From Caballeronia turbans (GTDB lineage Bacteria; Pseudomonadota; Gammaproteobacteria; Burkholderiales; Burkholderiaceae): a DNA stretch of 64,000 bases. This document shows, in pieces, positions 57,703 through 59,801 of the stretch (position 1 is its first letter; each line of letters starts with the position of its first letter). The position numbers were made by a program, and so were the translations under genes. The DNA lies in NCBI GenBank assembly GCA_001544655.2, contig FCOD02000003.1:248001-312000 (forward strand). Reading direction: 5' to 3'. Below the pieces are notes generated by a model. That model saw only the letters and a list, made by a program, of their open reading frames with translations, was not told the DNA's origin and searched no databases.

Positions 57703-58713
57703 ATGACGATGCTCTTCCTCGAACTCGCGTTGATGCTTGCGATCATTCTGATCGCGTCAGAGCTATTCACGAACGCGCTCGAACATCTGGGCGAACGGCT
57801 CGGTATATCCGAAGGCGTGACCGGGTCGCTGTTCGCGGCGGTCGGCACGGCGTTGCCGGAAACGACGGTGCCTATCATCGCGCTGCTCGGCGGCACACCG
57901 AGCCGTGCGATCAATGAAGAGATCGGCGTCGGCGCGATTCTCGGCGCACCGCTCATGCTCGCGACGCTTTCCACTTGCCTGATGACGGTCGCGATTCTCA
58001 AGTCGCGCGGCTTGCGCGGGCGGATCACGCCGGAGCGCAGCGGGTTCACGCGCGATCTCAACTTCTTTTTGTTCGCCTTCCTGATTGCGTGCGCCGCGAT
58101 GTTCGTGCCGCATCACGCGTGGCAGGTGCGTGCGGTGTTTGCGGCGGGTCTGGTCGGGGTGTACGTCGTTTATGTGATTTCGACGTTCAGGGCTTCGGCG
58201 AAGCTCGTCGAGGGCGGGCATGGGACGGAAGCGCCTGAGGCGCTGTTCGTGTCGCGTGCCGGGCTGAAGACGACATTCGGCACGATCATGCTGCAGTTTC
58301 TCGTCGGTATCGTGTTGCTCGTCGGCGGCGCGAAAGGGTTCATTCACGGCGTTGAAGGCGTGTCGCATGCGTTGGGGATTTCACCGCTGTTGCTGTCGCT
58401 CATCATCATTCCGATTGCCACGGAATTGCCCGAGAAGGTGAACAGCATTCTCTGGGCGCGCAGAGGGAAAGATACGCTCGCGTTCGGCAACATCACCGGG
58501 GCGATGGTGTTTCAAGGGACGTTGCTGCCGGGAATCGGCATCATGCTGACGCCGTGGGAGCCGCGGGTCGAAGTGCTGACTGGCGTGCTGATCACGCTCG
58601 CGGCGGCGGCGTGGCTGCGGTTCAATGCGAAGGAGAATGGGGTGGTGTTGTGGGCGTTGCTCGGCAATGGGGTGCTGTATGCGGCGTATCTCGTGCTGAC
58701 GCTTGGGCGCTGA
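57703..58713 (+). CDS. CaCA-family cation/proton (Ca2+/Mn2+) exchanger
   Basis: This is a 336-residue inner-membrane antiporter with about ten hydrophobic segments. Two alpha-repeats are visible, SLFAAVGTALPETTVPI and IIPIATELPEKVNSI, each with the essential Glu of the calcium/cation antiporter superfamily. A Mn2+-responsive riboswitch lies upstream, so the physiological substrate may be manganese rather than calcium. The ATG at 57703 is near a weak GAGGT. The CRISPR array begins 79 bases after its stop. Confidence 0.88.
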   Translation: MTMLFLELALMLAIILIASELFTNALEHLGERLGISEGVTGSLFAAVGTALPETTVPIIALLGGTPSRAINEEIGVGAILGAPLMLATLSTCLMTVAILKSRGLRGRITPERSGFTRDLNFFLFAFLIACAAMFVPHHAWQVRAVFAAGLVGVYVVYVISTFRASAKLVEGGHGTEAPEALFVSRAGLKTTFGTIMLQFLVGIVLLVGGAKGFIHGVEGVSHALGISPLLLSLIIIPIATELPEKVNSILWARRGKDTLAFGNITGAMVFQGTLLPGIGIMLTPWEPRVEVLTGVLITLAAAAWLRFNAKENGVVLWALLGNGVLYAAYLVLTLGR

Positions 58714-58792
58714 TGTTCGTGTCTTTCGGCGATGCGCGCGCGGATGGGAGTTTTCGGGTTTTTCCTTTCGGGTCATGCGGTTATGATCGAGG
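58714..58792 (+). promoter_or_regulatory. Probable CRISPR leader
   Basis: This 79-base stretch between the exchanger stop and the first repeat contains a T-rich tract (58751-58768). The repeats are intact beside it and decay at the far end, which places the leader and transcription start here. No clear promoter was read. Confidence 0.5.
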
Positions 58793-59610
58793 GGTTCCTC
58801 CGCGTGTGCGGAGATAGACCCCGCGAGCTGATCGCCGATGCGGTACTGCCGCGGGTTCCTCCGCGTGTGCGGAGATAGACCCAGCGGCCGTCATTGCCGC
58901 ACCCTCCGCGCATCGGTTCCTCCGCGTGTGCGGAGATAGACCCATCGCCGACACAGCGGGGCGAAGCCGGTGGCGGTTCCTCCGCGTGTGCGGAGATAGA
59001 CCCCTGAGCGACGAGGATTTCATCATCGCGCTCGAGGTTCCTCCGCGTGTGCGGAGATAGACCTTACGCAGACCATAAGGGCATGGCGGCATTCCCGGTT
59101 CCTCCGCGTGTGCGGAGATAGACCCTCATGCGCGCTGCTGAGCAACGAGCCGACGCGGGTTCCTCCGCGTGTGCGGAGATAGACCGCCGGCGCCTACGAC
59201 CAGCGGATCCCGAATAGGGGTTCCTCCGCGTGTGCGGAGATAGACCCGATGCGCATCCTGCAAGCGCTCGACGTCGCGCGGTTCCTCCGCGTGTGCGGAG
59301 ATAGACCCGGCGGCCGCGCGCCGACGATTGCTCTCCGGCGGGTTCCTCCGCGTGTGCGGAGATAGCCCCTGGTTTGCCCAGACGAAGCGCAGCACCGAGG
59401 ACGTTCCTCCGCGCGTGCGGAGATAGACCCTACGCGCCGGCGGCAAACAGTGACGCGATGGCAGTTCCTCCGCGTGCGTGGAGATAGACCTAATCACGCT
59501 CATTTGCCGCAAATCTCGAACGGCTTCCTCCGCATACACAGAGATACACCCAATCGCGGCCGCGGCGACTGCATCTGCCGCAGGCTCCTCCGCGAACGCG
59601 GAGACAGACC
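58793..59610 (+). CRISPR. Orphan type I-E-like CRISPR array (14 repeats, 13 spacers)
   Basis: Fourteen 28-base repeats alternate with 32- or 33-base spacers (about 61-base period). The repeat begins GGTTCCTCCGCG and ends GGAGATAGACC; a following C is mostly shared, so a 29-base repeat is possible. It forms a 6-bp hairpin (CTCCGC-GTGT-GCGGAG) and resembles the E. coli type I-E repeat in length, hairpin and ending, which makes the plus strand the crRNA strand with a 5' handle like AUAGACCC. Repeats 1-9 are identical. Repeat starts: 58793, 58854, 58915, 58975, 59036, 59097, 59158, 59219, 59280, 59341, 59402, 59463, 59523, 59583. No cas gene is in the window. Confidence 0.95.
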
Positions 59611-59670: not shown

Positions 59671-59697
59671 AAACAAAATGCCCGCCGAAGCGGGCAT
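59671..59697 (-). terminator. Rho-independent terminator of the glycan operon
   Basis: On the minus strand a perfect 8-bp stem (59697-59690 with 59685-59678) and a four-base loop are followed by TTTGTTTTTT. It lies about 105 bases after the methyltransferase gene and closes the leftward operon. Confidence 0.85.
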
Positions 59698-59801
59698 CCA
59701 AGAGCGAAGCAGCGCGCCAAAACATCAGCGCGTCTTTCTTGTTGTTCTTGTTCAGATTATCGGCACGCGAGGCGCTAACTTTAGCGAAACCTTGCCGTCC
59801 G

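Follow-up and report, generated by a model that had tools for sequence, protein, structure and literature searches.

The CRISPR array of the 64-kb window (the whole stretch of Caballeronia DNA analyzed here; the array is termed array W) is very probably an ordinary remote satellite array of a type I-E system, transcribed, processed, and updated in trans by the machinery encoded on another contig of the same genome, C46. This reading draws on an identical repeat, a complete cas operon, similar leaders, and an IHF-like motif at a fixed offset, as well as on a shared bias in the first spacer base and an exact viral protospacer with the expected neighboring bases.

The 13 spacers of array W are 33 nt (ten) or 32 nt (three) long. 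Repeats 1–9 each match GGTTCCTCCGCGTGTGCGGAGATAGACC at 28 of 28 positions, while repeats 10–14 carry 1, 2, 3, 7, and 5 mismatches, respectively; because the degenerate repeats follow the identical ones, the leader is placed at the left end and the old end at the right. The partly palindromic 28-nt repeats, the 32–33-nt spacers, and the period of ∼61 nt fit the type I-E format. The repeat is predicted to fold into a hairpin with a 6-bp stem, a 4-nt loop, and four further closing pairs (z = -3.7; 0 of 200 shuffled sequences were equally good). The comparison of repeats confirms the 14 repeats, nine of them identical at the leader side, that were described in the first-pass annotation. The array is placed between the stop codon of a caxA-like gene and a GCCCGC hairpin (Table 1). 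Farther right, on the opposite strand, are methyltransferase-like, ATP-grasp-like, and DegT/DnrJ aminotransferase genes, the first two assignments both being below the Pfam cut-off. Candidate Rfam RNA families near the array were rejected, as all four matches scored below the gathering score and lay on the minus strand of the hairpin region.

Table 1. Features of array W and its surroundings (positions in the window), and the other arrays of the genome.
Feature	Location	Strand	Evidence or remark
caxA-like gene (Na_Ca_ex, PF01699)	57703..58713	+	Pfam E 2.6e-33; co-oriented, directly upstream of array W
Leader of array W, 79 nt	58714..58792	+	Leader alignment
IHF-like motif GGTCATGCGGTTA	58771..58783	+	Ends 9 nt before repeat 1
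CRISPR array W, 14 repeats / 13 spacers	58793..59610	+	Repeat comparison; start of repeat 1 to end of last repeat
Array W spacer 4	59003..59035	+	33/33 match, viral contig IMGVR_UViG_3300047319_000106
GCCCGC hairpin with T-run	59676..59699	-	Hairpin scan: 1 found, 0.7 expected by chance
Array A1	contig C46		41 repeats; divergent from cas3
Array A2	contig C46		10 repeats; directly after cas2
Array A3	contig C61, 87836-88778		16 repeats; remote; 74 nt after Sua5-family gene

The genome assembly (7.35 Mb in 120 contigs, with the window on contig C48) encodes a complete type I-E operon, comprised of cas3, cse1, cse2, cas7, cas5, cas6, cas1, and cas2, at 73.8–82.6 kb of contig C46. Each of the eight proteins passes the threshold of one or more NCBIfam type I-E or cas3 models, with Cas5 scanned as a 206-aa piece, its start removed by the end of the locus. 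Genome-wide searches for cas1, cas7e, and cas3 above the cut-off found none of the three on contig C48, including the window, nor on contig C61, which carries array A3. Both cas7e and above-cut-off cas3 are confined to C46, which excludes a second I-E effector locus closer to array W. Six cas3-helicase matches fall below the cut-off, one of them on C48 outside the window (210874-211437). Estimated from the contig ends, array W and the C46 operon are at least about 158 kb apart if on the same replicon.

A repeat pattern search of the whole genome returned four blocks (W, A1, A2, and A3) and one stray site on contig C27, the latter probably due to chance (two mismatches in the pattern search, four over 28 nt, and no neighboring repeats). 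The consensus repeats of W, A1, and A2 are identical (28 of 28 positions), and that of A3 differs by one base. No spacers are shared among the arrays, the longest stretch common to any pair of the 77 spacers being 11 nt. The first-pass annotation had rightly called the array type I-E-like, had seen no cas gene beside it, and had raised the possibility that the machinery lies elsewhere in the genome; the window does lack the three cas genes searched for, no cas operon lies close by, and the genome search that it proposed recovers both the I-E operon and, on either side of it, an array with the same repeat. The apparent orphan can be assigned to a multi-array I-E system that looks intact, and a cas-free window of 64 kb says little about orphan status.

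The same genome also holds a broken type I-F locus (C29:177166-189077), with nine I-F-type repeat matches compared with one in a reversed-pattern control. It includes a fragment from the C-terminus of cas1f, part of the N-terminal region of cas3f, a Csy1 gene, and a transposase-like frame with no NCBIfam match, and vgrG-like genes adjoin it.

The leaders of W, A2, and A3 resemble one another, that of W also resembles array junctions in related genomes, and the A1 leader is unlike them except close to the repeat. In all four leaders, an IHF-like motif at position -22, ending 9 nt before repeat 1, is the best or joint-best site, matching 6 (W), 7 (A1), 6 (A2), and 8 (A3) of the nine fixed positions of the IHF consensus, WATCAANNNNTTR. 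The flanks of W (400 nt), A1, and A2 contain other sites that score as high, so that only the constant offset carries weight, and the weak motif of W (6 of 9) detracts from the satellite-array reading. In E. coli the IHF site spans -9 to -35 (PMC10011333).

Three of the arrays also share their position relative to genes: W, A2, and A3 each begin a short distance behind a co-oriented gene, 79 nt from the stop codon of caxA, ∼88 nt from that of cas2, and 74 nt from that of the Sua5-family gene. A crude consensus scan for sigma-70-like promoters, with a chance expectation of 0.2–0.4 (0.3 for W), found none near these three arrays and a promoter-like TTGACA-17-CATACT at A1. That three of the four arrays lie right behind a co-oriented gene with no promoter-like site hints at transcription by read-through. 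Since its own leader has no such site, which also counts against the satellite-array reading, array W might be transcribed at least partly by read-through from caxA.

The spacers provide evidence on the function of the arrays. Of the 77 spacers in the four arrays, 55 begin with C directly behind the 28-nt repeat (chi-square p = 6e-14), and C is the commonest first base in each array (W 10/13, A1 29/40, A2 5/9, and A3 11/15). In E. coli I-E systems, the last repeat base is derived from the PAM (PMC10011333), and AAC, AAG, and AAN are among the I-E PAMs listed for other genera (PMC8482600). The C bias would fit an AAC/AAG-type PAM.

Spacer 4 of array W, searched in IMG/VR as a degenerate coding pattern, matched two viral contigs, at 33 of 33 positions in the one listed in Table 1 (L098) and at 32 of 33 in the other (L099). 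In both, AA precedes the C, giving a PAM of AAC. Shuffled spacers, allowing up to seven mismatches, gave no matches in 83 of 123 viral loci. Because these loci were pre-selected by spacer patterns, the agreement of the exact match at the wobble bases, and at the seven positions outside the search pattern, is a stronger argument than the shuffles. The type I-E trait of a mobile-element spacer beside an I-E PAM is therefore found for spacer 4, one of the seven W spacers (of 13) tried in IMG/VR; exact 21-mers of spacers 1, 2, 6, and 10 and degenerate patterns of spacers 5 and 7 had no matches there. This yield weakens the satellite-array reading, as do the results for the whole array against INPHARED phages, where the three matches are at chance level. 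Array A1 had no match in INPHARED. Against plasmids, array W returned 18 records, the best of which (Caballeronia sp. M1242) has 65.5% identity over 76% of the query.

Among the spacers of the other arrays, A3 spacer 15 matches phage MW202796 at 33 of 33 positions within a cytosine methyltransferase gene, where the neighboring bases are CAC. With up to five mismatches, it has one place in each of at least 122 of the 123 viral loci, nearly all of which were fetched by the 25-nt core of this spacer, whose target gene is widely conserved. Among the 122 matches listed, the neighboring bases are AAC in 72, CAC in 26, AAT in 20, CGT in three, and TGT in one. The PAM is thus not clean, with CAC beside the exact match in MW202796 and bases other than AAC at 50 of the 122 places listed, and this also weakens the reading of array W as a satellite array. 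A2 spacer 5 has 91% identity (E = 0.004) to the primase gene of Burkholderia phage FLC5, beside AAG. Viral contig L098, in which W spacer 4 has its exact match, also contains a protospacer for A3 spacer 15 (two mismatches); AAC is present at both, and the two remote arrays may consequently target the same phage group.

From these features we infer that transcription, processing, interference, and acquisition would all be served in trans. Cas6e of the C46 operon would process the array W transcript by cutting it at its repeat hairpins, the resulting crRNAs would be loaded into Cascade, and phage DNA with both a match and an AAC/AAG-type PAM would be degraded by Cas3. The Cas1-Cas2 proteins encoded on C46 would add new spacers at the left end of the array, with IHF bending the leader.

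To place the array within the genus, we compared 58 genomes including its own, one per species. A cas1e gene scores above the cut-off in 13 of these genomes (24 with any cas1e match), and 26 have repeat-like matches. In a genome contig collection from which its own or near records are possibly absent, the exact repeat occurs at one locus, in C. cordobensis LMG 27620. The leader-repeat pattern identified 30 junction matches in 18 genomes, which fall into four groups by upstream flank, such that Caballeronia arrays recur at four chromosomal addresses. The cas-linked group has 14 matches in 12 genomes (one of the two in genome G024 lies inside the array of the other), and the remaining groups are the A3 site (10 genomes), a third remote site (three), and the caxA site (three). 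The genes preceding these addresses are cas2, the Sua5-family gene, caxA, and possibly a reading frame at the fourth: in one locus of the third remote site (L068), a forward reading frame ends 63 nt before the repeat, and its TGA is matched in the other two loci.

Downstream of caxA, repeats are present in 5 of the 56 genomes with a caxA match (the caxA matches of genome G045 are only partial), with 14 repeats in the array W genome, seven in G015, three each in G023 and G035, and one in G046; shuffled sequences gave one match. At this site, no repeat was detected in 51 of the 55 other genomes. The GCCCGC hairpin lies 3′ of the repeats in all five occupied genomes, ∼1 kb further on in G023 and G035. 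Among the 51 genomes with an empty site, 37 have a similar hairpin a short way behind the caxA stop codon, and in the other 14 none was found. No cas1e match was obtained in G015, G035, or G046, and cas1e of G023 is interrupted by a stop codon. The four other copies at this site are decayed, while array W remains intact and has a full complement of cas genes in its genome. In a tree built from caxA (one gene, 31 of the 56 sites), the five occupied rows are scattered and require four changes, three of them forced by well-supported branches. As 117 of 500 shuffles gave values as low, occupancy is not clearly clustered, and the tree does not separate an old array with losses from repeated arrival. 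Genome G017, at a 15-repeat junction (G017:C1:507921), and G015, at three junctions, carry arrays but have no cas1e match, and their arrays are more promising as true orphans than the window array.

The decayed copies in four relatives could suggest that array W is itself a silent relic, once active, which no longer gains spacers or makes crRNAs and persists through slow decay, and a leader with no promoter-like site would suit such a history. The unbroken run of nine identical repeats next to the leader, set against degenerate distal ones, argues otherwise, as do the retained leader and the complete cas operon in the genome, and we consider a relic improbable. A still smaller likelihood attaches to the other possibility raised in the first-pass annotation, that the array is an orphan with some other use; regulation of caxA or of host genes would be a non-immune example. 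Its location between the caxA stop codon and a conserved hairpin could alter the caxA 3′ end, but the array is not an orphan, given the operon on C46, and most relatives carry no detected repeat at this site. The leader, a first-base bias like that of the other arrays, and a spacer matching viral contigs look instead like ordinary immunity. A true orphan, with no cas genes in the genome, is ruled out by the C46 operon.

Beyond the satellite role of array W, a more tentative and rather doubtful proposal is that Caballeronia keeps its I-E memory at four or more recurrent addresses, where promoter-poor leaders lie right behind the stop codons of co-oriented genes, the supply of crRNAs would track host-gene expression through read-through, and addresses would fill and empty in the course of evolution. 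The recurrent addresses, and the gradient at the caxA site from 14 repeats to a single remnant, offer a compact set for studying the origin of remote arrays, their feeding in trans, and their decay after cas loss. Among the titles and abstract openings listed for the Caballeronia and Burkholderia CRISPR literature, none describes these arrays, which is no proof that they are unpublished.

Array W belongs to a known kind, the remote type I-E array. In E. coli, the CRISPR-2 array lies away from the cas genes. Array W resembles this second array, which has the same repeat as CRISPR-1, and the likeness would extend to the IHF-dependent leader integration and PAM-derived last repeat base described for E. 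coli (PMC10011333). In contrast to CRISPR-2, array W is much farther from cas (on another contig), belongs to a genome with four arrays, has a repeat-end base that is mostly C rather than G, and has a leader directly after a non-cas gene. Same-repeat arrays at a distance from cas are reportedly also treated by Shmakov et al. A survey (PMC12814883) concludes that, for arrays with identical repeats, distance from cas makes little difference to the likelihood of being updated. Array W, with an identical repeat far from cas, is the same in kind as the remote arrays described in that survey, to which the recurrent addresses across Caballeronia add a local detail.
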